Shown piece after piece: positions 38,739 through 52,997 of a DNA stretch of 64,000 nucleotides (positions are counted from its first letter, which is position 1; each line of letters opens with the position of its first letter). A program made the translations under genes and the position numbers. The notes below the pieces were generated by a model. The model saw only the letters and a list, made by a program, of their open reading frames with translations. It was not told where the DNA came from and did not search any database. Origin of the DNA: Rhodospirillaceae bacterium (GTDB lineage Bacteria; Pseudomonadota; Alphaproteobacteria; Rhodospirillales; JABHCV01); NCBI GenBank assembly GCA_014382375.1, contig JACNJU010000086.1, forward strand, positions 1-64,000, read 5' to 3'.

Positions 38739-39635
38739 ATGAGCATAAATAAAAACCCGGCCATCGCCTTTATTGGCGTCGGTTTTATGGGACATGGCAT
38801 CGTTAAGAATATTTTGCACGGTGGCTACGCGCTCAGCATTCTGGACCATCCGGGCAACCGTCCCGTCGATGATCTGGTGTCAGCCGGAGCGCGCCTTGGG
38901 CAGAGCGCCGAAGGATTGGCCGCCGCCGCCGATGTTGTCTTCATCTGTGTCACCGGAACCCCGGAAGTCGAAGACATCATGCTTTCCAAGGGAGGCGTTT
39001 TGGGGGGCTTGCGGGAAGGCTCAATCGTTGTCGATTGCTCGACTGCACTTCCCCAGTCAACAATAAAACTGGCGGCGACGGTGGCCGAAAAGGGTGGGTC
39101 ACTGATCGATGCACCAATGACGCGGACGCCCAAGGAAGCCGAAGAAGGGCGTTTGAATGTGATGCTTGGCGGCGAGGGGGCGGTGATCGAGGCGGTCATC
39201 CCAATCATCAACTGTTACGCTGAAAACATTTACCGCACCGGGGCGGTCGGATCGGGCCACAAGATGAAGTTGCTCCATAATTATCTGGCACTGGGCAACG
39301 CCGTATTGGCGGCAGAAGCGACGGCATGCGCCGAAATTTGTGGTGTCGACATGGATACCTACTGTGAAGTGATTATGAGCGGTGGCGGAGATAGTCTCGT
39401 TTTCAGACGTCTGCTACCCTATATACAGAATGGCGATGATGGCAGTTTCAAGTTTTCCGTCGCCAACGCCGAAAAGGATTTGCGTTATTATGCGAGCATG
39501 GCAGATGGACTTGGGGCGGCGAAGGCAGGATCGGAGGCCGTTCATGAACTACTTGAGCAAGCAAGGGCGGCTGGCCTGGAAGGGCAATCCATGCCTAAAC
39601 TGATCGATTATTTTAGGGGGCTTGGGCAGTCATGA
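38739..39635 (+). CDS. Beta-hydroxyacid dehydrogenase, first of a tandem pair
   Basis: The 298-residue protein belongs to the 3-hydroxyisobutyrate/tartronate-semialdehyde reductase family: N-terminal Rossmann motif GVGFMGHGI, IVVDCSTALPQ and the catalytic-Lys helix VGSGHKMKLLHNYL. The substrate loop usually written DAPVSGG is DAPMTRTPKEAEEG here, so it belongs to a branch with different acid specificity. NAD(P) preference and substrate are not determinable. It follows dinG by 23 bases and overlaps the next gene by 4. Confidence 0.88.
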   Translation: MSINKNPAIAFIGVGFMGHGIVKNILHGGYALSILDHPGNRPVDDLVSAGARLGQSAEGLAAAADVVFICVTGTPEVEDIMLSKGGVLGGLREGSIVVDCSTALPQSTIKLAATVAEKGGSLIDAPMTRTPKEAEEGRLNVMLGGEGAVIEAVIPIINCYAENIYRTGAVGSGHKMKLLHNYLALGNAVLAAEATACAEICGVDMDTYCEVIMSGGGDSLVFRRLLPYIQNGDDGSFKFSVANAEKDLRYYASMADGLGAAKAGSEAVHELLEQARAAGLEGQSMPKLIDYFRGLGQS

Positions 39636-40522
39636 CGTCATTGAAAGGTCAAACCATCGGTTTTGTCGGCCTCGGCCTGATGGGTATGCCCATGTGTAAA
39701 AACCTGATCAATGCAGGGGCTGATGTGGTTGCCACGACCCGCTCCCCTGATGCTTTGAAATTAATTTCTAATGAAGGGGCCAGGACGGTCGCAAACCCGC
39801 AAATCGTTGCCGAAAGTGCCGATATCGTTGTCATGATGGTCGCTGACACCGTCGCCGTAGAAGCCGTTATGTTTGACGAGCACGGCATTCTCGCCGGTGT
39901 CACTTCCTCCAGTCTGGTTATTGACATGGGAACGACGGCGGTGACACGGACCCGTGCTTTTGCGGCCCGTATTGCCGAAGCCGGTGGTGCCTATGTGGAC
40001 GCACCCGTTTCGGGCGGCACCCTGGGGGCGGAGGCAGGTTCTCTGACTATTATGGCTGGTGGTGACAATCAGGCGATTGAGCGGGCCCGTCCGGTTCTTG
40101 AAGTGCTCGGCGCGCGGCTCACCCATGTCGGCCCGGTCGGTACCGGTCAGGTCGCCAAGGCGGCCAACCAGGTCATTGTCGGGCTCAATATAGGGGCCGT
40201 AGCCGAAGCCCTGATGCTGGCCGCCCACGCCGGTGCCGATCCGGCTCGCGTACGCGAGGCATTGAAGGGCGGCTTTGCCGATTCCCGTATTCTCGAGGTC
40301 CACGGCCAACGCATGATTGACCGGGCGTTCAGCCCCGGCGGCAAGGTGACGACCCAGCGTAAGGATATGACCCAAGCCCTGGAGCTGGCCGCCGAACTGG
40401 CTATAGAAATGCCGGCCACAAACCTAAATAAAAGCCTTTACGAAAAGCTGATTGAAGACGGTGATGGCGGCCTTGATCATTCGGCCCTGATCAAGGCTCT
40501 CGATCCAGACTGGACGGGTTAG
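39632..40522 (+). CDS. Beta-hydroxyacid dehydrogenase (2-hydroxy-3-oxopropionate reductase type), second of the pair
   Basis: The 296-residue protein carries GLGLMGMPMCKNL, DAPVSGGTLGAEAGSLTIM and the catalytic GTGQVAKAANQVIVG (Lys, Asn). These are canonical for 3-hydroxyisobutyrate dehydrogenase and tartronate semialdehyde reductase. Unlike its upstream neighbour it keeps the SGG substrate-binding loop. The two share an ATGA overlap but are clearly diverged, so they probably act on different hydroxyacids or as an unequal pair. Confidence 0.9.
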   Translation: MTSLKGQTIGFVGLGLMGMPMCKNLINAGADVVATTRSPDALKLISNEGARTVANPQIVAESADIVVMMVADTVAVEAVMFDEHGILAGVTSSSLVIDMGTTAVTRTRAFAARIAEAGGAYVDAPVSGGTLGAEAGSLTIMAGGDNQAIERARPVLEVLGARLTHVGPVGTGQVAKAANQVIVGLNIGAVAEALMLAAHAGADPARVREALKGGFADSRILEVHGQRMIDRAFSPGGKVTTQRKDMTQALELAAELAIEMPATNLNKSLYEKLIEDGDGGLDHSALIKALDPDWTG

Positions 40523-40573: not shown

Positions 40574-42112
40574 GTGACCCATAGATCTGTAAAAGTGTGC
40601 CTGATCAGGCCATCAATTGTGGTTCCGGCCAACAACCAGACGTCCATGTTTACACCGCCGCTGGGCTTGGCTTACGTTGCCGGGACCCTTCGTGAAGGTG
40701 GTCATGATGTCAGTTTTATTGATGGTGTGGGCGAGGCTCTGGATACCCGCCACACGGTTAAGAACGACTGTTTCCTTTATGGTCTTTCGCTTGAGGATAT
40801 TGTCAAGCGGATTCCTTCGGACGCTGAAGTCGTTGGCGTTGCCTGCGGTTTTTCCTTCGAATGGCCAACCTGCCGGGACTTGATCGCGGGGATCCGCAAA
40901 AGATTCCCCAATGCCCTCCTGATCGGTGGCGGTGAACACGTCACCGCGATGCCGGTGCAAAGTATCGAGGAAAGTGAACTCGATCTGGGAGTGCTTGGCG
41001 AAGGGGAAGAAACAGCGCTTGAAGTCATCAATGCCTTTTCCACAGGAACAATCGATAAAACCCTGATCGAAGGGATCGTCTACAAGGACGGGGACGGCAA
41101 GGCGCAGAGCAACCCGAGGCGGGCGCGAAAACGCGACCTGGATACCATTCCCGTTCCGGCCTGGGATATCACTCCCATCGAGAACTATTTGGAACGCGGG
41201 TTTGGTTTTGGCGTTGATCGCGGGCGTTCAATGCCGCTGATGGCCAGTCGCGGATGTCCTTATCAGTGTACATTTTGTTCTAATCCGTTGATGTGGACGA
41301 CCCGGTGGATCGCCCGAGATCCGGACCTGCTGCTTGATGAAATCGTCACCTATCAGGAAAAATACAAGGCGGTCAATTTTGATTTTTATGACCTGACTGC
41401 GATTGTTAAAAAAAGCTGGATCGTCGATTTTTGCCGTAAAATTGAAGAGCGCGGCCTGACGTTTACATGGCAACTGCCCAGTGGCACCCGTTCAGAGGCC
41501 ATTGATGATGAAGTGGCGGGACTGCTTTTCAAGTCGGGCTGTCGAAATTTGTCCTATTCGCCTGAAAGCGGCTCGCCAGGTGTGCTGGCCCGTATCAAGA
41601 AGAAGATCACGACGGATTCGGTTATCGAGTCGATTTCCAGTAGTTTTGCCCAGGGCATGAACGTTAAGTGCAATATTATTTTCGGGTTTCCCGGCGAAAC
41701 CTTAAAGGAAGTCTTTGAAAGTTATCGTTTCATCATCCGTATGGGTATGGCCGGGGCTTATGATATCAGCATCTGGGCTTTCTCGCCTTATCCGGGGTCT
41801 GAATTGTTTGAACAAATCAGGGAAGATAGAGGCATCATACTGGACGACAAATATTACGATAGCCTTCGCTCCTATGCTGATGCATCGCGGACCGTTTCGT
41901 ACAGCAAGAACTTCAGCGATAAAAAACTTAAAACCCTGCGCTGGATTGGCGTCGCCCTGTTTTACAGTTCAGCATGGGCCAGGCGCCCTCTCAGGCCCTT
42001 CAAGATGATCATGAATGTTTTGCGGGGGACCCAGGAATCCCGTTCGGAAATGGCGTTGGCTAATATGCTGCGTCGCAAGACTTTGGCAAATGACGCGGGC
42101 GTACAGGACTAG
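40574..42112 (+). CDS. B12-binding-domain radical SAM protein
   Basis: The 512-residue protein starts at a GTG with GGGAATAG upstream. The N-terminal ~170 residues form a cobalamin-binding-type Rossmann domain (MFTPPLGLAYVAGTLREGG, ALLIGGGEHVTAMP) without the DxHxxG His ligand. The radical SAM core has Cys228, Cys232, Cys235 (CPYQCTFC), followed by SYSPESGSPGVL and IIFGFPGETLKE. Family members methylate or rearrange unreactive carbons in lipids, cofactors and natural products. The substrate is unknown. It shares its stop-codon bases with the convergent membrane protein. Confidence 0.88.
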   Translation: MTHRSVKVCLIRPSIVVPANNQTSMFTPPLGLAYVAGTLREGGHDVSFIDGVGEALDTRHTVKNDCFLYGLSLEDIVKRIPSDAEVVGVACGFSFEWPTCRDLIAGIRKRFPNALLIGGGEHVTAMPVQSIEESELDLGVLGEGEETALEVINAFSTGTIDKTLIEGIVYKDGDGKAQSNPRRARKRDLDTIPVPAWDITPIENYLERGFGFGVDRGRSMPLMASRGCPYQCTFCSNPLMWTTRWIARDPDLLLDEIVTYQEKYKAVNFDFYDLTAIVKKSWIVDFCRKIEERGLTFTWQLPSGTRSEAIDDEVAGLLFKSGCRNLSYSPESGSPGVLARIKKKITTDSVIESISSSFAQGMNVKCNIIFGFPGETLKEVFESYRFIIRMGMAGAYDISIWAFSPYPGSELFEQIREDRGIILDDKYYDSLRSYADASRTVSYSKNFSDKKLKTLRWIGVALFYSSAWARRPLRPFKMIMNVLRGTQESRSEMALANMLRRKTLANDAGVQD

Positions 42113-43953
42113 GGTTTTTCCCAGGTCTTAATGATGCGCCAGCCGCCGTTGCGGTCATTTTCAAGCAAATATGAATGTTTCTCGTCCATATCCAGTGCCA
42201 GTACTTCCTGCACCACCGGGCTTAAAGAGTGAACGAGCAAGTGTGATGCATTAGTGTTCAGGTCTGATCGAAGCACTTCCTTTTCAGGATGGTGAAAGAT
42301 ACTCAGGAAACCTCTGTATATTCCGATGCGGCCCAATTCGTAACGGGCGATAATGCCTGACTCACCGCTACCTTTCGGGTCAAGTACGTTAACCTTGTTT
42401 CCTGAAACGAGCAGATCATTCAATTCAGCCGCCACGACGCGAAAATAAGGCACCGGTTGATGGCGGTCGAAACGTAATTTATTAGCGAAAATGAAAGGCG
42501 CAATGATCATCAGCACAACCGGCAGCCAGCTATATCTTTTTGGCCATGCTCGGCCTTCAATATGCTTTTGCCACAAGATACCTAATCCGTAAGTGGTAAA
42601 GACAACCCCGATCATGCCCAATTGCATATTATAACGCCAATAGGATGCGGCCCTGAGGGCGTCATATTGTCCAAAAGAGCTAAGATAAGCAACAAACAGG
42701 AAGGCATTGTGGCCAAGAAAGACTGCACCGGCGATGATTGCAAACCGGTCAAAAGGGGTACGGTATTTTACCATTGCCCTTATACCAAAGCCGATGATGA
42801 CGACCAACAAGAACAGGTATGCCCCTTTTTTCGTCAGAACGAGTAGCATCCTCGAAAGGATTTGCGGAATATATTCAAAGAACCAGTCTGAAAATGCCGC
42901 CATCTTCATTTCTCTGGCGGGGAGTTCTTGACCGATGTAATAGCGCCAAACAATGAAAATAAAAATTGCCGGAATAACCATTCTTGGCAACATCGCGAAC
43001 AAGTCGCGAATGGTGATTTTGGGGTCTCGCAATCCAGCTAGGCCAATAGCGCAGACAACAATCACGGCCATAACGACAGTTGATTGTTTCAGATTGACAA
43101 GTAGCATCATAAGCAAGCCAATCTGAAGGGCGTTTTTAAGGGCTTCCCTATGTTTCCCTTCGGCCAGGGCACCCAGCATGTACCAGCCAATAACGACACT
43201 CAAACCCGTGACTGTCGCCGTCGCCACATCGGCATAGGATGTCAGGGCGACTTTTTGTACAAATGTCGTATTGAGTAACGTCGTCGATAACCCGCCAATG
43301 GCGCATAACGTCCAACCCGGGGTGGAAATGTCATCCTCTTGGCCAAGGCCTGTGCGGATAAATCTTATGGACAAGAAGCTAAATGTCAGCAACATGAAAA
43401 CATTGATCAGAGCACCGGCATTTTCGAGAAAACGTCCCGCTATAAGGCTGGCCAGGTACGTTACGAAATGCCACCCATAGGGATAGGCGGCCAGGGTGCC
43501 GCCGCGATGGGCGTCAGCGGCAGTTGGAAATGTTCCTGTTTCCAACATTAAGCGTGGGCTGATCAACCAATCGGAAAATTCGTCCCATTGTGAGCCAACC
43601 ATGGCCGAAACAAGGAGCAAAAGAGGGGTTGCCAGCAGTATGATCTTTACAGTTCCTGCCGGAAACAATCTTTGTTCCCGCTTAAAGGCAAAAATCAGCG
43701 CCACTGTGGCAATTCCGCCTAGGCCAACTGCAACAATGGGGAAGGGGAAACGACCAAAAACACCCAGAACGGTCAGTACAAAATTGATAATGGCCCAACC
43801 GAAAAAAGGTGCTGCTTCGTACACTTTTTTTTCGCCCTTAGTGCCGATGAAGAAAGATCCTATGGCGAAAAAACCTACCCACAGGATCGCCGATGCCAGG
43901 AATGAATCAATTTGCCCACCGTGCTGAACAAAATTAGCAAAATAGTCTGTCAT
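42109..43953 (-). CDS. Polytopic membrane protein, GT-C glycosyltransferase-like
   Basis: The 614-residue protein has about 12-13 membrane helices and a C-terminal soluble domain of ~130 residues. After TM4 comes an outward loop with WDEFSDWLISPRLMLETG followed by an AAYPYGWHFVTYL stretch, which looks like the acidic catalytic loop of GT-C enzymes that use polyprenyl-phosphate sugars. The family assignment is inference. It is encoded opposite the radical SAM gene (shared CTAG) and divergently from the amidotransferase fusion, so it fits a surface glycan module. Confidence 0.65.
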   Translation of the reverse strand: MTDYFANFVQHGGQIDSFLASAILWVGFFAIGSFFIGTKGEKKVYEAAPFFGWAIINFVLTVLGVFGRFPFPIVAVGLGGIATVALIFAFKREQRLFPAGTVKIILLATPLLLLVSAMVGSQWDEFSDWLISPRLMLETGTFPTAADAHRGGTLAAYPYGWHFVTYLASLIAGRFLENAGALINVFMLLTFSFLSIRFIRTGLGQEDDISTPGWTLCAIGGLSTTLLNTTFVQKVALTSYADVATATVTGLSVVIGWYMLGALAEGKHREALKNALQIGLLMMLLVNLKQSTVVMAVIVVCAIGLAGLRDPKITIRDLFAMLPRMVIPAIFIFIVWRYYIGQELPAREMKMAAFSDWFFEYIPQILSRMLLVLTKKGAYLFLLVVIIGFGIRAMVKYRTPFDRFAIIAGAVFLGHNAFLFVAYLSSFGQYDALRAASYWRYNMQLGMIGVVFTTYGLGILWQKHIEGRAWPKRYSWLPVVLMIIAPFIFANKLRFDRHQPVPYFRVVAAELNDLLVSGNKVNVLDPKGSGESGIIARYELGRIGIYRGFLSIFHHPEKEVLRSDLNTNASHLLVHSLSPVVQEVLALDMDEKHSYLLENDRNGGWRIIKTWEKP

Positions 43954-44208
43954 TTTAAGTGATTACCTGACGCGGTCGGCTAAAGGAAATTTTGGAGGCC
44001 CAACCTAATTAATTTCTGATCGTCTGACCACTTAAAAAAACGCCATGAAGGATAACTTAGAAAGTCTTATAAATAGTGTCTCAATGGTTCCATGGACAGC
44101 AGCATCTGATAGTGTTAGCGTCCCGCAAAATTGCCGATATTTAGTGTGAATCACAAAGGTATTTCGGTGTTTATTTTTTTATTTTAAAGGTGTTGTCAGG
44201 CTTTAATT

Positions 44209-46149
44209 ATGTGCGGAATATTTGGAATTGTCGCCGGAAGAGGCGCATCGTGCGACAAGACGGCTTTTCATCAGTCAATCATTGATCTTTTCAAACTATC
44301 TGAACCGCGTGGACGAGAGGCAAGCGGTCTTGTCATTTCGGCAAGGAATGAAGTGCTGGTGTTCAAGCGTCCGATTGCGCCCTCTTCCATGCTCCGCTCT
44401 GCCGATTTCAAATCATTCGTCAAAGCCAGTGAAGCGGCCTACAAGGTCGATGAAAACGGGGCCGTATCCGAGGCTTACGCCGCTATTGGTCATTGCCGCC
44501 TTGTTTACAACGGAACAGAAACGGTTGCCGGCAATAACCAGCCGATTATTTCCGATCATTGTGTCGGCGTTCATAACGGATTGATTACAAATGACTGTGA
44601 TCTTTGGAATCAACATGCTGGAATCGACCGTACACTCGATACTGATTCAGAGATAATTTACCGATTGATCGACCGTTTCGTTGATGAAGGGAACGATTTG
44701 TCTAAAGCGATATCCCTGACCTTCGCCGAACTGGAGGGAACCGCATCCCTGGGCTTTTTCAGAAATGATGCCAGATTGATGGTCCTTGCGACAAATAACG
44801 GTTCCATCTACACGGCCCATTTCGAGAAGCAGGGTGTTTTCGTTTTTGCTTCTGAAAAGTTCATTCTGGAAAGTTTTATCGCCAATGGTCCGTTCATGGC
44901 AAAGGCGCAGGCAACTGCTGTTGAGCAACTTGCCGCCGGTAAGGGCATGATTATTCCATTCAGGGACGCGATCCCGCAAATCTTCGATTTCGATAAGGTG
45001 GTCAAAATTACTGCGGATATTTCCGCAACCTCTATCATGACGGTAAAGGACATGACCGACCATCTGGGCGATGTGAAACGCTGTACGAAATGCGTGTTAC
45101 CTGAAACCTATCCCTATATCGAATACGACCAGGACGGGGTTTGTAATTTTTGCCGTAATTACAAAACGCAAAAACCCCAAGGTCGTGATGCGCTTGAAAA
45201 TATCCTCGCCGAGTATCGAAAAAGTGATGGCTCTCCTGATTGTATCGTCGCCTTTAGCGGAGGGCGGGACAGTTCCTATGGATTGCACATGATCAAGAAC
45301 GAAATGGGCATGAACCCCATCGCCTTTACTTATGACTGGGGCATGGTCACTGACATTGCCCGCCGCAATTCGGCGCGCATGTGCGGGCAGCTTGGTATTG
45401 AGCATATTCTGCGGGCTGCTGATATTCCGGCTAAGCGCCGGTATATTCGTAAAAATATCCATGCTTGGCTGGCCCGTCCGAAGCTCGGCATGATTCCGAT
45501 CTTTATGGCCGGAGATAAAATGTTCTTCCATTACCTAAGGGAGCTGCGTAGGGAAACTGGTATTGATCTTGTCCTCTTCTGTGGCGGTAATTTGCTTGAG
45601 CGGACGGACTTCAAGGCAGGTTTTGCGGGGGTCAAGGAAAACGAGCACGGTAATCGCCTGTTTGGACTTTCGTTGGCCAACAAGACGGGATTATTCCTTT
45701 GGTACGCCTCGCAATATTTATTGAACCCCCGTTACTTTAATGAGTCATTCATCGATACAATGTGGGCTTATTTTTCGACCTTCATTGCCAAGGATGACTT
45801 CACCTACCTATATCATTACCTGCCTTGGAATGAAGAAGAGATCAACAAAACCCTGATCGGACAGTACGGTTGGGAAGGGGCGGCCGATAGCGACAATACG
45901 TGGCGTATCGGTGATGGCTACACATCGTTTATCAATTACATTTATCATACCGTTGCCGGATTTTCTGAATACGATACCTTCCGCTCAAACCAGATCCGCG
46001 AAGGTCTGATCACGCGCGAGCAGGCGCAGGAATTGCTCGCCCAAGACAATGAACCGAAGCTCGATGTGCTTTACGATTTCGCCAAGCACACAGGGTTTAA
46101 TCTGGAAGAAGTCCTGACCCGGATTAATTCCATCGAAAAACTGTATTAA
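44209..46149 (+). CDS. Fused class II glutamine amidotransferase and N-acetyl-sugar amidotransferase-like protein
   Basis: The 646-residue protein begins MCGIFGIVAG, with Cys2 as the expected N-terminal glutaminase nucleophile, and has GHCRLVYNG and GVHNGLITND as in GlmS, PurF and AsnB. From residue ~285 it switches to the WbpG/PseA-like amidotransferase domain: four cysteines CTKC (292, 295) and CNFC (312, 315), the PP-loop SGGRDSS (350-356), FTYDWGMVTDIARRN and LFCGGNLLERTDF. WbpG-type enzymes normally receive ammonia from a separate HisH-like glutaminase; here a different glutaminase is fused. The likely job is amidation of a nucleotide-activated amino sugar for a surface glycan (inference). 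The next gene is a flippase 11 bases downstream. Confidence 0.85.
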   Translation: MCGIFGIVAGRGASCDKTAFHQSIIDLFKLSEPRGREASGLVISARNEVLVFKRPIAPSSMLRSADFKSFVKASEAAYKVDENGAVSEAYAAIGHCRLVYNGTETVAGNNQPIISDHCVGVHNGLITNDCDLWNQHAGIDRTLDTDSEIIYRLIDRFVDEGNDLSKAISLTFAELEGTASLGFFRNDARLMVLATNNGSIYTAHFEKQGVFVFASEKFILESFIANGPFMAKAQATAVEQLAAGKGMIIPFRDAIPQIFDFDKVVKITADISATSIMTVKDMTDHLGDVKRCTKCVLPETYPYIEYDQDGVCNFCRNYKTQKPQGRDALENILAEYRKSDGSPDCIVAFSGGRDSSYGLHMIKNEMGMNPIAFTYDWGMVTDIARRNSARMCGQLGIEHILRAADIPAKRRYIRKNIHAWLARPKLGMIPIFMAGDKMFFHYLRELRRETGIDLVLFCGGNLLERTDFKAGFAGVKENEHGNRLFGLSLANKTGLFLWYASQYLLNPRYFNESFIDTMWAYFSTFIAKDDFTYLYHYLPWNEEEINKTLIGQYGWEGAADSDNTWRIGDGYTSFINYIYHTVAGFSEYDTFRSNQIREGLITREQAQELLAQDNEPKLDVLYDFAKHTGFNLEEVLTRINSIEKLY

Positions 46150-46160
46150 GATGAGGACCC

Positions 46161-47465
46161 ATGGCGGACGGTAAGTTTCGGCAGCAATCGAAATTTCTGA
46201 ATGACGCCATCTGGAATTACGGCGCCTTTGCAGTGATGGCTGCGAGCGGTGTGATCCTCAATTTTTTCATCGCCGCCCATTTCGGTATCGAGGCCCTGGG
46301 CGTCTTCAATCAAATTTACGCACTCTACGTCGTCACCGCCCAGTTCGCGGTATTGGGCTTTCATGATTCCGCACAAAAGCATGTTTCCGAATTGGACGCC
46401 GAACCCCATCATATTGGCGTGGTGTCGGCCGCAGCGCTGGTGCTGGCGGCGGGGTTCGGTTTGTTAACGGCCTTTGGCGTTTATTTTCTCAGCCAGCCAA
46501 TTGGTTTTTTGGCCGATAGCGAAGCGGTTGGCAAGGGTATTGCGCTGGCCGCACCGGGGCTTGTCTTCTTCGCCATAAACAAGGTGCTGATGGGGATTTT
46601 AAACGGTGTACGCCGAATGAAGGCTTTTGCCGGGGCGCAAGCCTTGCGGGTCTCGGTAATACTTCTTAGTTGTCTGGGCGTCGCCTGGATTGAGCAACCG
46701 GCCTTTATGTTGGGTCTCAGTTTTACCATTGCCGAGGTTGTCTTGCTGCCGTTTTTGCTTTATCTGATCCGCCCGCACCCAACGGATTTTTCTTCTGGCG
46801 AGGCTCTCAGGCGCTGGATCAAGGTTCATTTTCACTTTGGTTCTCGCGCCCTGATAAATGGCTTCCTGGCTGAATCATATATCCGTATTGATATCATCAT
46901 GCTTGGTATTTTCATGAGCGACCGGGACGTCGGCATCTACAGTTTTGCGGCGCTGTTTATTGAAGGTCTGTTCCAGGTGCCCGTGGTATTTCGCACTTTG
47001 GCAAACCCGGAATTGGCGCGTTTACTAAAAGCAGGCGACAAGCAGGCCAGCGCTAAATTTTGCCGCAAGGTGGCGTTGATGAGCCTTGGTGTTTTTGGTG
47101 TCGCTGCGGCCATTGTGCTCTTTGTATATCCTTATCTCGGCCCCTGGTTCCCTGACGATCTGGTGAACCTCAGTTATCCGCTGCTGCTGGTGCTGATCGG
47201 GGGCTTGACCGTTTACGCCGTGATGATCCCCACAGATATGATCGTCTTGCAGGCAGGGATGCCCGGCAGACAAAGCCTGCTTATGACTTTCAACGTGCTG
47301 GTCAATGCAGTGCTTAATCTGGCGCTGATTCCGCTGTTTGGGCTTTACGGGGCGGCGAGCGCGACGGCCATTGCCTTTGTTGTCGCCTCAGTCGCTATCA
47401 ACGGGGCGACCTGGAAGTGGCTAGGTTTTAAGGGCGGTGTACTGCTGTATCGAAATCCCGAGTGA
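46161..47465 (+). CDS. Polysaccharide flippase (Wzx-like, MOP superfamily)
   Basis: The 434-residue protein has about 12-14 membrane segments with the MATE/Wzx layout (NYGAFAVMAASGVILNFFIA, IEALGVFNQIYALYVVTAQF, GLYGAASATAIAFVVASVAI). Such proteins flip lipid-linked oligosaccharides across the inner membrane. A GAGG precedes the ATG, 11 bases after the amidotransferase fusion, so they form an operon. No Wzy polymerase or full set of sugar genes is adjacent, so the substrate may be a small decorated unit. Confidence 0.88.
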   Translation: MADGKFRQQSKFLNDAIWNYGAFAVMAASGVILNFFIAAHFGIEALGVFNQIYALYVVTAQFAVLGFHDSAQKHVSELDAEPHHIGVVSAAALVLAAGFGLLTAFGVYFLSQPIGFLADSEAVGKGIALAAPGLVFFAINKVLMGILNGVRRMKAFAGAQALRVSVILLSCLGVAWIEQPAFMLGLSFTIAEVVLLPFLLYLIRPHPTDFSSGEALRRWIKVHFHFGSRALINGFLAESYIRIDIIMLGIFMSDRDVGIYSFAALFIEGLFQVPVVFRTLANPELARLLKAGDKQASAKFCRKVALMSLGVFGVAAAIVLFVYPYLGPWFPDDLVNLSYPLLLVLIGGLTVYAVMIPTDMIVLQAGMPGRQSLLMTFNVLVNAVLNLALIPLFGLYGAASATAIAFVVASVAINGATWKWLGFKGGVLLYRNPE

Positions 47466-47629: not shown

Positions 47630-49303
<1,674 letters not shown>

Positions 49304-49771: not shown

Positions 49772-51505
49772 TTAATCCAGAATGGTCGGGTGGGCCAGGG
49801 CCTGTGCGGAGTCGATGACAATAAGATTTTGGCCACGATACGGTTGCGCATAAATCGGGGTCGTGATGACGGGAAGTTCGGCGCGGATATAGATGAGCTT
49901 GCCTTCGGGATTTTTAGCGAGCCAGTCTTCCAGGTCAGGGGCCTGCAAGCCGACACTGGCAATGGTCTCACTCAACCGACCCAGGAAATTAAACTGACCA
50001 TGATATTTACCAACATAGGCAAGATGGGTGCCGGCGAGTTGCCAATCACCAAATTTTTGCGAAACCTCTTTCATATTGAAGCGTTCCGCCAGCGCTGGGC
50101 GCAGGCTTAGATTGACACTCAATACAAGCGCCATGGACAGGATGCTTATAGCGCTCAGGCGGCTCAAAAGGCTTGCTGTCGAACGGTTAAGGATAAGGAC
50201 GATCATGGCAAGAAGGGCCAGCACCAATCCCCAGATAGAATCGGTTTCCCTGACAACGACCGGTAATTTAAAAAGGTCACCACTCAGGGGGGCCGCGGCC
50301 AATATCAGGCCGATAACAATAAACAGGGTGCAGGGAATGTGTAGTCCCCAGCCAGCCCAGGAAACCTGATCCGGGAATTTGGCAAAATGATCAACCAGCA
50401 GGCGGCCAAAAAGGAGAGCCAGGGCCGGAAAGACGGGCAAAAGATAATGCAGTTGTTTCCCGCTGATCGCCGAAAAGGTGATCAGGGCGGGGATAAACCA
50501 GATCAGGCAGAAGCGGATGCCGTTGTCCTTCCCCACATCCAGCAAGCCGCGGATGGAACGCCAGGAAGCAGGCCATAGAGTCCACGGCAGCACCAGCGCG
50601 GGCAGGACGGCAAGGAACCACCACCACGGGCGGCCATGGGCGAAACTGTCAACCATGCGTCCGGCTGACTGGCCCCATAAAATGGCGTAACGGTACTCTT
50701 CACCGCCGACAATCGCCGCCGGGAGCGCCCAGGCCAGACCAATGGCAACACCCCCTAGAACAGCTAAGCCAACAGCGGTGTACCATCGCTTCCAGCCACG
50801 GTCCCACATTATTGAGGTGGCTGTAGATGGGGTGGCGGCCGTTACATCAAGGCCATCGTCGTTAATTTCTGGTTCTGTGCTGTTATCTCTTGCCGCCCAC
50901 AGTGGCGCCAACAAGGCAACCGGCAGGGTCGATAGCAAAATAGCCGGACCCTTGGCCAATGCGCCAAGGCCAATGGCCAGGGCCAGCCAGACAAATCCAT
51001 CAGTTTTATTATCCTGCCAGGCGCGCAGGATGCCCAACATCGCCAATAGGGCACAAAAGGCAAGCAGCATGTCGAACATGGTCAATGTTGTGAACAAGGT
51101 CCAGAACAGGCAGGCGAATAAAATCAAGGGTGCTGCCACGGCGACGGTAGAACGGCTGGGCCACAAACGGCGGGCCAGCATGGAGGTCAGAAATAAACTT
51201 GCCAGACCGAACAGGGGTGCGACCAGCCGCGGCCACCATTCATTGACACCGAAAACCGCCCAACCGACATTCATCAACCAGAACAACAACGGTGGTTTAT
51301 GGCTGTAGGGTTCACCGTTCAGGTGTGGAACAAGAAAATGCCCGTCCCGCCACATTTCCCAGGCGACGGCAAAATAGCGTGTCTCATCGACCGGCAACAA
51401 CGGGCGAAATTTCAGCATTGCTGCCATCAGCGCCAACCACATAGCGCTCCATAACAGGGCGTAAGCGGTGGCTGAAAGGCGACTTGTCGAAGTTGTTTCG
51501 TTCAT
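49772..51505 (-). CDS. ArnT-like lipid-A/glycan glycosyltransferase (GT-C, PMT family)
   Basis: The 577-residue membrane protein has about 12 helices and the PMT/ArnT opening: a first loop with PVDETRYFAVAWEMWRDGHF, followed by PHLNGEPYSHKPPLLFWLMN. The Asp-Glu in that loop is the catalytic pair of GT-C enzymes. It likely transfers a sugar from undecaprenyl phosphate to lipid A or another envelope acceptor. It overlaps the TVP38 gene by 4 bases, which in turn overlaps a DPM1-like gene that could make the lipid-linked sugar donor. Confidence 0.88.
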   Translation of the reverse strand: MNETTSTSRLSATAYALLWSAMWLALMAAMLKFRPLLPVDETRYFAVAWEMWRDGHFLVPHLNGEPYSHKPPLLFWLMNVGWAVFGVNEWWPRLVAPLFGLASLFLTSMLARRLWPSRSTVAVAAPLILFACLFWTLFTTLTMFDMLLAFCALLAMLGILRAWQDNKTDGFVWLALAIGLGALAKGPAILLSTLPVALLAPLWAARDNSTEPEINDDGLDVTAATPSTATSIMWDRGWKRWYTAVGLAVLGGVAIGLAWALPAAIVGGEEYRYAILWGQSAGRMVDSFAHGRPWWWFLAVLPALVLPWTLWPASWRSIRGLLDVGKDNGIRFCLIWFIPALITFSAISGKQLHYLLPVFPALALLFGRLLVDHFAKFPDQVSWAGWGLHIPCTLFIVIGLILAAAPLSGDLFKLPVVVRETDSIWGLVLALLAMIVLILNRSTASLLSRLSAISILSMALVLSVNLSLRPALAERFNMKEVSQKFGDWQLAGTHLAYVGKYHGQFNFLGRLSETIASVGLQAPDLEDWLAKNPEGKLIYIRAELPVITTPIYAQPYRGQNLIVIDSAQALAHPTILD

Positions 51506-52200
51506 GGCTGGCTGTCCTCGACGCCCAGTTCGCGTTCAACCCGGATATCGAAAGATTTGCCGCGACGGTATTTACGAAAAAGGAAGACGCCAAGAAAGCC
51601 TGATACCGCAAACAAGATAATGCTGATGGCGATGCGTAATTCAGGATCAACGCTGAAACCGCTGCCAACAAGTGCGAACACAAGGGTTTGAGGCAGATAG
51701 CCGATAGCCGAACCAAGGAAGAAAGGTACCGCGCCGACACCAGAAACTCCTGCCGCAAGATTTGTCACCACATTGCTGCCCAGGGGTAGTAGGCGAATAA
51801 GCAGGGTCATGCTGAGCGGATTTTCGTGCAGGAAGTCGTCAATACGCTGAACCCGGTCGGGAAAACGGCCGACAACGAATGACCGACCCATGACACGGGC
51901 ATAGAAAAAAGCGACAATACAGCCCAGCACCGTCGCCACCATTGCCAACGCCGTCCCTTCGAGCAGGCCAAAGGCGTATCCGGCAAGGAAACAGATAACC
52001 TGACGGGGTAGACCGACGGCGGTGAACATCATACCGACGCCAACAAACAACAACTCACCGGTAAAACCCTGCCCCCGGATATCGCTGTCAACCCATGCCT
52101 TGTCGATGGATGAACCCAGGCCGCTGACTTTCAGGGCATAGCCGATGGCGACCAGTGATGTGATCCAGATCAGGCCGCGAAACAGGATTTTAGCGGTCAT
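51502..52200 (-). CDS. TVP38/TMEM64 (DedA-like) membrane protein
   Basis: The 232-residue protein has about five to six membrane helices and the conserved core GLPRQVICFLAGYAFGLLEG, NPLSMTLLIRLLPLGSNVVT, NLAAGVSGVGAVPFFLGS and IGYLPQTLVFALVGSG. Relatives in the VTT/DedA group are linked to scrambling or flipping of polyprenyl phosphate and other lipids. Located between two polyprenyl-sugar glycosyltransferases, it may recycle or flip their lipid carrier (inference). Confidence 0.87.
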   Translation of the reverse strand: MTAKILFRGLIWITSLVAIGYALKVSGLGSSIDKAWVDSDIRGQGFTGELLFVGVGMMFTAVGLPRQVICFLAGYAFGLLEGTALAMVATVLGCIVAFFYARVMGRSFVVGRFPDRVQRIDDFLHENPLSMTLLIRLLPLGSNVVTNLAAGVSGVGAVPFFLGSAIGYLPQTLVFALVGSGFSVDPELRIAISIILFAVSGFLGVFLFRKYRRGKSFDIRVERELGVEDSQP

Positions 52201-52997
52201 TGAGAGATAGCCTTTTGGGGCTTTGGGTTTTTATTGATTGTTAATTCCTGGACTTCAGGCTTGTTGGCCCGGCGCAACAACCAAAGCACGCCAAACAAAT
52301 CGACGATGCCGACACGAAGGCGGTCCCACGTCCCGTATTTGGAAACCCCGCGTTCGCGGGGCCGGTGGTTCACGTCAAGCGAGATCACAGTGCCGCCACG
52401 GCGGATCATCAGGGCCGGCAGAAAACGATGCATGTGATCGAATTGCGGCATCTCCAGGAAGGCCGTGCGGGTGAAGACTTTAAGGCTGCAGCCAGTGTCA
52501 GGGGTATCGTCGTTAAGTAAACGAGAGCGAACGCCGTTGGCTATTTTTGACGATACCCGTTTAATCCATGTATCCCGGCGCTTGGCGCGCAGGCCCGCAA
52601 CCATCAGATTGTCACGCTCCGGGGCGCCTTTCAGGGCTGAATAGAGTGCCGGAATATCGCCCGGATCGTTTTGCCCGTCGCCGTCCAGGGTGGCGATGAT
52701 AGGTGCTTTGGCGGCCTTGATGCCGGTCATGATAGCGGCACTTTGACCACAACAGTTTCGATGACTTAAAATCCTCAATTGTGGGCATTCAGCCTTTACA
52801 TCAAGCAACCTTTGGGCGCTGTCATCGGAGCTGCCATCATCGATATAAATGATTTCATAGTGCCCACAGACAGGATCAAGGGCAGCCCGGATTTCAGCAG
52901 TCAACGGGGCAAGGTTTTCGGCCTCGTTAAAGACGGGTACAACGACAGCTAATTCCGGCGTGCTGGATTGATTTTCGTGTTGCTTTGGCTCAGTCAT
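52197..52997 (-). CDS. GT2 family glycosyltransferase, DPM1/ArnC-like
   Basis: The 266-residue protein has the GT-A fold of polyprenyl-phosphate sugar synthases: VVVPVFNEAENLAPL, IIYIDDGSSDDSAQ, TLDGDGQNDPGDIPAL and HRPRERGVSKYG. It lacks the two C-terminal membrane helices found in ArnC/GtrB-type enzymes and has only a short amphipathic tail. It probably makes a polyprenyl-phosphate sugar used by the ArnT-like enzyme two genes downstream. It is first in the operon and overlaps the next gene by 4 bases. Confidence 0.88.
   Translation of the reverse strand: MTEPKQHENQSSTPELAVVVPVFNEAENLAPLTAEIRAALDPVCGHYEIIYIDDGSSDDSAQRLLDVKAECPQLRILSHRNCCGQSAAIMTGIKAAKAPIIATLDGDGQNDPGDIPALYSALKGAPERDNLMVAGLRAKRRDTWIKRVSSKIANGVRSRLLNDDTPDTGCSLKVFTRTAFLEMPQFDHMHRFLPALMIRRGGTVISLDVNHRPRERGVSKYGTWDRLRVGIVDLFGVLWLLRRANKPEVQELTINKNPKPQKAISQ

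Follow-up and report, generated by a model that had tools for sequence, protein, structure and literature searches.

We analysed a 64,000-nucleotide stretch of a contig from a marine Rhodospirillaceae bacterium (JACNJU010000086.1, positions 1 to 64,000 of the forward strand; hereafter the window) and found that a gene within its locus 40574-47465 encodes a class II glutaminase joined, in one polypeptide, to a sugar amidotransferase domain of the WbpG/WbuX type. We propose, with a probability of about 0.58, that this fusion protein is a one-piece glutamine-dependent N-acetyl-sugar amidotransferase (NASAT) that acts with an adjoining flippase and an adjoining GT-C-like membrane protein in export and transfer of its product, and that the radical SAM gene found at the same locus is separate from it. 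The fusion gene and its parts are as follows.

44209..46149, + strand: fusion gene, 646 amino acids (aa), with a class II glutaminase (residues ~1-270) and an N-acetyl-sugar amidotransferase domain (residues ~290-634), from matches to Pfam GATase_6/7 and NCBIfam TIGR03573
44209..45018, + strand: predicted class II glutaminase domain, from the alignment to 1xff, residues invariant in 13/13 proteins and a model with a predicted local distance difference test score (pLDDT) of about 85
45082..45153, + strand: zinc (Zn) tetracysteine motif of the NASAT family, C292-x2-C295 ... C312-x2-C315, invariant in 13/13 proteins
45256..45273, + strand: ATP-pyrophosphatase PP-loop SGGRDS, residues 350-355, invariant in 13/13 proteins

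The protein starts with MCGIFG, which contains the cysteine at position 2 (Cys2), and its residues 81-218 match the Pfam families GATase_6 and GATase_7 over their cut-offs, while residues 290-634 match the NCBIfam family TIGR03573 (WbuX) with E=1.3e-41. Both halves are also matched by family profiles in every member of a set of 13 fusion proteins, made up of the window protein and 12 homologues that are 36-85% identical to it. Throughout this set, Cys2, Arg97, Asn123, Gly124 and Asp146 are invariant, as are C292/C295/C312/C315 and SGGRDS. In the alignment to 1xff, Arg97, Asn123, Gly124 and Asp146 align with Arg73, Asn98, Gly99 and Asp123 of GlmS, and Cys2, which lies outside that alignment, corresponds to GlmS Cys1; the roles of these glutamine-site residues of GlmS are established. 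The MCGI start, the tetracysteine and the PP-loop were also present in 17 further homologues, so that every one of the 30 fusions checked has SGGRDS. These two motifs, tetracysteine and PP-loop, define the NASAT family in the paper on the LpNASAT crystal structure (8wex), which describes the family reaction as an ATP-consuming conversion of the N-acetyl group of a sugar into NC(=NH)CH3 (PMC10607449). The closest solved structures to the fusion are this same 8wex (profile search, 5e-18) and the glutaminase domain of GlmS. In the predicted model, the glutaminase half is good and superposes on PurF, GFAT and GlmS (Z 24-26, 224-240 residues, root-mean-square deviation (rmsd) of 2.3-2.9), and the second half is of low confidence. 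Since the fusion forms one unbroken frame in the full-length homologues that were found, it is neither due to chance nor a frameshift artefact, and its residues indicate that it is catalytically intact.

The initial annotation of this locus, made from the letters alone, had recognised a WbpG-type amidotransferase fused to an N-terminal class II glutaminase and had set it against the usual systems, in which separate HisH-like and HisF-like partners supply ammonia. Both points are borne out: HisH and HisF genes adjoin stand-alone WbpG genes in four of our loci (L041, L042, L045 and L046), and the ordinary arrangement, with separate WbuX, HisF2 and HisH genes, is found in a Sphingomonas exopolysaccharide locus (PMC11340318). 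A WbuZ profile was then used to search genomes for extra HisF copies. In the window genome (G000), this search found only the HisF and HisA of histidine synthesis, and it found no further full-length HisF in six other fusion-bearing genomes (G002, G003, G004, G061, G063 and G064); three genomes with a stand-alone WbpG (G007, G013 and G053) have further HisF copies. Given that the window genome has no extra HisF/WbuZ, the class II glutaminase domain very probably stands in for HisH/HisF. Another kind of fusion was seen in G053, where a WbuZ/HisF-like and a WbuX domain share a single open reading frame (ORF) of 692 aa (L045:7646-9724), next to a HisH gene.

The domain order glutaminase plus WbpG-like domain, which had also been singled out as worth searching for, was detected in 26 of 317 genomes of the order (a few matches being partial) and, besides the window genome, in 2 of 398 sampled Pseudomonadota. 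Fusions are also carried by three plasmids (one of Solidesulfovibrio and two of Agrobacterium strains, the cultivable hosts Solidesulfovibrio carbinolicus and Agrobacterium sp. RAC06 among them) and by an Omnitrophota metagenome-assembled genome (MAG). When 24 fused and 13 stand-alone NASAT domains were placed in one tree, all of the fused domains fell on one side of a branch with 99/99 support, apart from ordinary WbpG, although some stand-alone rows are long-branched and placement within the fused side is less sure. In public records the fusion proteins go by the names '7-cyano-7-deazaguanine synthase', 'hypothetical protein' or 'glucosamine 6-phosphate synthetase', so that they are currently overlooked. 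Carriage by viruses was rejected: no relative of the fusion was found in IMG/VR, and none of the phage matches covers 80% of the query, those listed being glutaminase-like with 27% identity over 55%. A second cassette copy in the window genome (L022, on contig C52, 5.6 kb) was also rejected, as it is 99.3% identical to G003 and 75% identical to the window, and contig C52 is, by these identities, most likely a contaminant of the MAG.

Reading the ORFs of 40574-47465 gave four intact genes, which were placed, together with the boundaries of the site, as follows.

40574..42112, + strand: B12-binding radical SAM protein, 512 aa; PF04055 63.8 bits and PF02310 56.5 bits, both over cut-off; CPYQCTFC
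42109..43953, - strand: membrane protein of 614 aa, putative GT-C-like glycosyltransferase whose C-terminal domain is soluble; weak structure model; adjoins the fusion in 14/31 loci
43954..44208, no strand: divergent intergenic region of 255 bp, probable promoter region, from the gene layout
46161..47465, + strand: MOP/Wzx-type flippase, 434 aa; PF13440 over cut-off
39632..40522, + strand: NAD-binding gene, 6-phosphogluconate/hydroxyisobutyrate dehydrogenase-like, conserved left-hand boundary, from synteny
47630..49291, - strand: groEL, conserved right-hand boundary of the cassette site, from synteny in G001, G003, G004, G005, G465, G489 and others

The radical SAM and membrane-protein genes lie tail to tail with an overlap of 4 bases, the membrane-protein and fusion genes are divergently oriented on either side of the 255-bp gap, and the flippase gene starts 11 bp past the end of the fusion gene on the same + strand. 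Promoter-like matches in 43954-44208 were not above chance, and promoter and terminator scans gave no more sites than shuffled sequence.

Neighbourhood counts covering 31 fusion loci were used to ask which of these genes belong with the fusion. A flippase homologue adjoins it in 21 of the 31, and lies downstream on the same strand in 20 of these (the exception being G002, where the fusion is inverted). For the GT-C protein the count is 14 loci, spread over at least three families of the order; in two others, the contig breaks off on that side. The radical SAM gene adjoins the fusion in five: the window, G003, G004, G060 and, in another context, L021. These three genes without the radical SAM gene (fusion, flippase and GT-C) usually sit between the dehydrogenase gene and groEL. 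Eight relatives have the radical SAM gene without the fusion (G001, G005, G021, G030, G031, G041, G048 and G049): at the cassette site, it stands alone, with neither GT-C nor flippase, in G005, with a GT-C gene in G031, G049 and G030, and with a GT-C and a flippase gene in G001, and it is found with a GT-C gene at other sites in G021, G041 and G048. In G002, the fusion, flippase and GT-C genes are located elsewhere and there is no radical SAM ortholog. The unit is a three-gene cassette and not a set of four genes, the radical SAM gene probably being a separate resident of the locus.

We then compared the gene trees. In G001, which belongs to the genus of the window, the flanking genes are 86-97% identical to those of the window, the GT-C protein is only 34% identical and there is no fusion gene. 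A tree built from 21 GT-C proteins groups the 14 neighbours of a fusion in a single clade (100/100; 0 of 500 label shuffles), whereas on the radical SAM tree the fusion label is scattered and requires four changes. As the GT-C clade follows the fusion and the radical SAM tree does not, these trees indicate that a matched GT-C allele accompanies the fusion.

The initial annotation had read all four genes as one compact module, without the usual sugar-nucleotide genes, that could make, modify and export an amidated or C-methylated lipid-linked sugar. The four genes do lie side by side, and modification and export of a lipid-linked sugar fit with the co-travel of the fusion with the flippase and the GT-C-like protein. 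The module itself holds for the flippase (21/31) and the GT-C protein (14/31), but not for the radical SAM gene (5/31), which is common without the fusion; since the latter probably lies outside the unit, the idea that the same sugar would be C-methylated is conjectural. Likewise, no sugar-nucleotide genes adjoin the four genes, but genes for UDP-N-acetylmannosaminuronic acid (UDP-ManNAcA) are present on another contig.

As for the products of the partner genes, the flippase scores 29.7 bits on PF13440 (cut-off 23), has 12 hydrophobic segments and is assigned by the family test to the MOP (Wzx) family. The radical SAM protein has PF02310 and PF04055 over their cut-offs and CPYQCTFC (CxxxCxxC) at residue 228, the marks of a B12-dependent radical SAM enzyme, and falls below the cut-offs of the named equivalogs of NCBIfam, such as P-methyltransferase, BchE and HpnJ (best Sden_1168, 155.5 against a cut-off of 575; BchE, 140 against 481). 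The 614-aa membrane protein has no Pfam or NCBIfam match, and its family, present in 31 of 60 relatives and thus common in the order, gave no sequence or profile match to any solved structure in the PDB. With its predicted model, Foldseek returned nothing significant, and a second structure comparison placed AftA, AglB, Pmt4, ArnT and PglB among the top matches (Z 8-11, rmsd 6-7, from a low-confidence model); we describe it, tentatively, as GT-C-like.

Side observations were made on these neighbourhoods. In several relatives that lack the fusion (L064, L065 and L066), the radical SAM and GT-C genes are neighbours on one strand; they may be a second, older functional pair. In G499 (L125:5782-13424), the fusion and flippase genes are flanked by two different GT-C genes. 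In G002 (L025:8405-14959), a 3' fragment of the inverted fusion gene (residues 571-646) remains by the flippase gene, with a methyltransferase gene between, and a methyltransferase 48% identical to that of G002 sits in the G502 cassette (L124:9843-10493).

Concerning the substrate, diacetamido-uronic acids are the class ascribed to WbpG in the Wbp pathway. In L021 and L040, the fusion is found with genes for a Gfo/Idh oxidoreductase, a hexapeptide acetyltransferase and a DegT aminotransferase, and the L040 cluster also has a UDP-sugar dehydrogenase, a gene make-up that would be expected for diacetamido-uronic acids. Such a pathway was rejected for the window genome, where a search for WbpE- and WbpD-type homologues came up empty at the thresholds used. 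That genome has a single strong DegT gene, which clusters with a flagellin-like gene and is uninformative on the substrate. The window genome has, on another contig, one wecB gene directly followed by wecC, both over their equivalog cut-offs, as do G004 and G691. While wecBC genes are common in bacteria, their presence makes UDP-ManNAcA the leading substrate candidate in the window genome.

Put together, the proposed mechanism is that Cys2 of the class II glutaminase would free ammonia from glutamine, and that this ammonia would move inside the protein to the C-terminal PP-loop domain. There, ATP would be used to activate the N-acetyl group of the sugar, with release of pyrophosphate, and the nitrogen would replace the N-acetyl oxygen to give an acetamidino sugar, as WbpG would do with HisH/HisF. 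The substrate may here be UDP-ManNAcA or a lipid-linked glycan containing ManNAcA. The flippase would then bring the lipid-linked product to the periplasmic side of the inner membrane, where the GT-C-like protein would transfer it or build on it. Of this, the sequences show the domains, the intact catalytic motifs, the lack of an extra HisF, the linkage to the flippase and the co-segregation with a GT-C allele; the amidine, the substrate, the internal ammonia channel and the sequence of flipping and transfer are inferred. A broader picture, which we hold more tentatively and at somewhat less than even odds, is that the class II NASAT, the flippase and the dedicated GT-C allele form a hitherto undescribed envelope system of marine Rhodospirillales-like bacteria that is gained and lost at one conserved chromosomal site and that places an amidine on an N-acetylated uronic acid and joins it to an envelope glycan in the absence of a classical O-antigen cluster.

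Several observations weigh against the proposed amidotransferase. The fusion scores 143.2 bits on TIGR03573, below the curated cut-off of 203.2 (as a control, stand-alone WbpG proteins of relatives reach 281-346 bits), so that its substrate, and even its reaction, may differ; because of this score, its NASAT half is placed by profile as a sister branch of WbuX and not as WbuX itself. Two genomes, G060 and G062, have, in addition to the fusion, an extra HisF gene close to separate WbpG genes, and a classical WbpG-HisH-HisF set shares one glycan cluster with a class II fusion in G087 (L041:8347-14616). Since both kinds are found in L041, the fusion is not merely a substitute there and need not do the same job. 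Ten fusion loci, some of them at contig ends, have no flippase, and the GT-C model is poor (pLDDT 53). That GT-C and fusion segregate together might simply reflect their physical linkage, which accounts for co-transfer but not for the pair being kept together. Finally, as WbpE/WbpD-type genes are found in L021 and not in the window genome, the substrate probably differs between genomes.

Considering the order of its domains, a class II glutaminase followed by a PP-loop ATPase, the fusion resembles asparagine synthetase, which is its top Foldseek match, and the main rival explanation is that it would amidate a carboxyl group instead, turning a hexosaminuronic acid (such as ManNAcA) into a uronamide as an asparagine synthetase B-like enzyme. 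TIGR01536 (asparagine synthetase B) does match the fusion weakly, and uronic acids are a common thread, with wecC in the window genome and the UDP-sugar dehydrogenase in L040. We nevertheless consider a uronamide unlikely, as the synthetase half is WbuX-like and not AsnB-like (32.6 bits on TIGR01536 against a cut-off of 267.1), the tetracysteine is specific to NASAT enzymes and several clusters (L021, L037 and L038) also have a separate AsnB gene. An explanation that concerns the ammonia supply is that the glutaminase domain is vestigial, with ammonia coming from the HisH/HisF of histidine synthesis or from free ammonia. A HisF of histidine synthesis does exist in the genome, but the class II catalytic residues are all invariant in homologues down to 36% identity and the dedicated HisH/HisF copies that ordinary WbpG systems have were not found here, making this highly improbable.

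Two other explanations differ from the proposed one in the role that they give to the neighbours. One is that all four genes form one pathway that amidates and C-methylates a lipid-linked sugar. The radical SAM gene does lie beside the fusion at its five loci, and the radical SAM and GT-C genes are also adjacent in many fusion-free genomes, likely as an operon in some (G021, G030 and G041); this is quite doubtful, however, because the radical SAM gene adjoins the fusion in only 5 of the 31 loci, eight fusion-free relatives do have one, G002 has the other three genes without it and its tree departs from the fusion. Somewhat more doubtful still is that the neighbours are unrelated to the fusion, the flippase and GT-C protein serving another surface glycan and the amidotransferase acting alone on a nucleotide sugar. 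Fusions are indeed also found in different glycan clusters without these partners (L018, L020, L037, L038, L040, L041 and L128), and G001 retains a flippase and a GT-C gene without the fusion, but the pairing of fusion and GT-C in 14 loci of at least three families, with one GT-C clade tied to the fusion, argues against unrelated neighbours.

WbpG-type enzymes are little understood because a three-protein complex is needed for their ammonia supply. The one-piece form would be a single purifiable protein, open to assay with glutamine, ATP and a sugar nucleotide, which brings an acetamidino-sugar chemistry that has long been inferred within direct experimental reach. Its existence further suggests that one and the same chemistry was wired to two unrelated kinds of glutaminase.

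Beyond the flippase gene, groEL/groES are followed by genes for a PMT-type membrane protein, a VTT protein and a GT2 glycosyltransferase. These PMT-type GT-C, VTT and GT2 genes (window 49772-52997) are kept by groESL at this site in many relatives and may form a further polyprenyl-phosphate sugar pathway.

The initial annotation had singled out the locus as the window's best candidate for an undescribed system. No paper on the fusion was found in the literature searched, which is weak evidence since most subscription papers lay outside the search, and a combined search for cobalamin radical SAM enzymes and polysaccharides gave nothing. The fusion is apparently an undescribed, separate branch of a known enzyme family, but for the locus as a whole the claim was too strong, as its parts are of known kinds. 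With WbpG/WbuX, which work with HisH2/HisF2 (WbuY/WbuZ), the fusion shares the PP-loop SGGxDS, the tetracysteine Zn motif and the glycan setting, but it has its own class II glutaminase in the chain, no dedicated HisH/HisF in the window genome, a score under the TIGR03573 cut-off and a clade of its own. The HisF-WbpG fusion of G053 is similar in that a NASAT domain is fused to part of its ammonia supply; it is, however, a class I system, in which the WbuZ/HisF-like domain is the fused part and HisH stays separate. In the GAT-QueC proteins of Crenarchaeota and phages, a glutamine amidotransferase domain is fused to a PP-loop domain to yield the amidine archaeosine (PMC5485725, PMC6884629), and WbpG has been placed in the QueC superfamily (PMC13329287). 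These proteins share the fusion type, with a related PP-loop domain, but the PP-loop half of our fusion is WbuX-like and not QueC (PF06508 has no match in the window fusion and a weak one in 1 of the 13 members), and it lies among glycan genes. Asparagine synthetase B and beta-lactam synthetase have the same order of a class II glutaminase (or its relic) and a PP-loop ATPase, whereas the synthetase half of the fusion comes from another branch, with the Zn tetracysteine. As for the 614-aa protein, it resembles the GT-C enzymes ArnT, AftA and PglB/AglB, which use polyprenyl-phosphate donors, in its many membrane helices and its soluble C-terminal domain, these enzymes being the best structural matches of a weak model, and differs from them in having no Pfam family and no sequence match to solved structures. 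The locus is thus made of known kinds of parts in a new combination.

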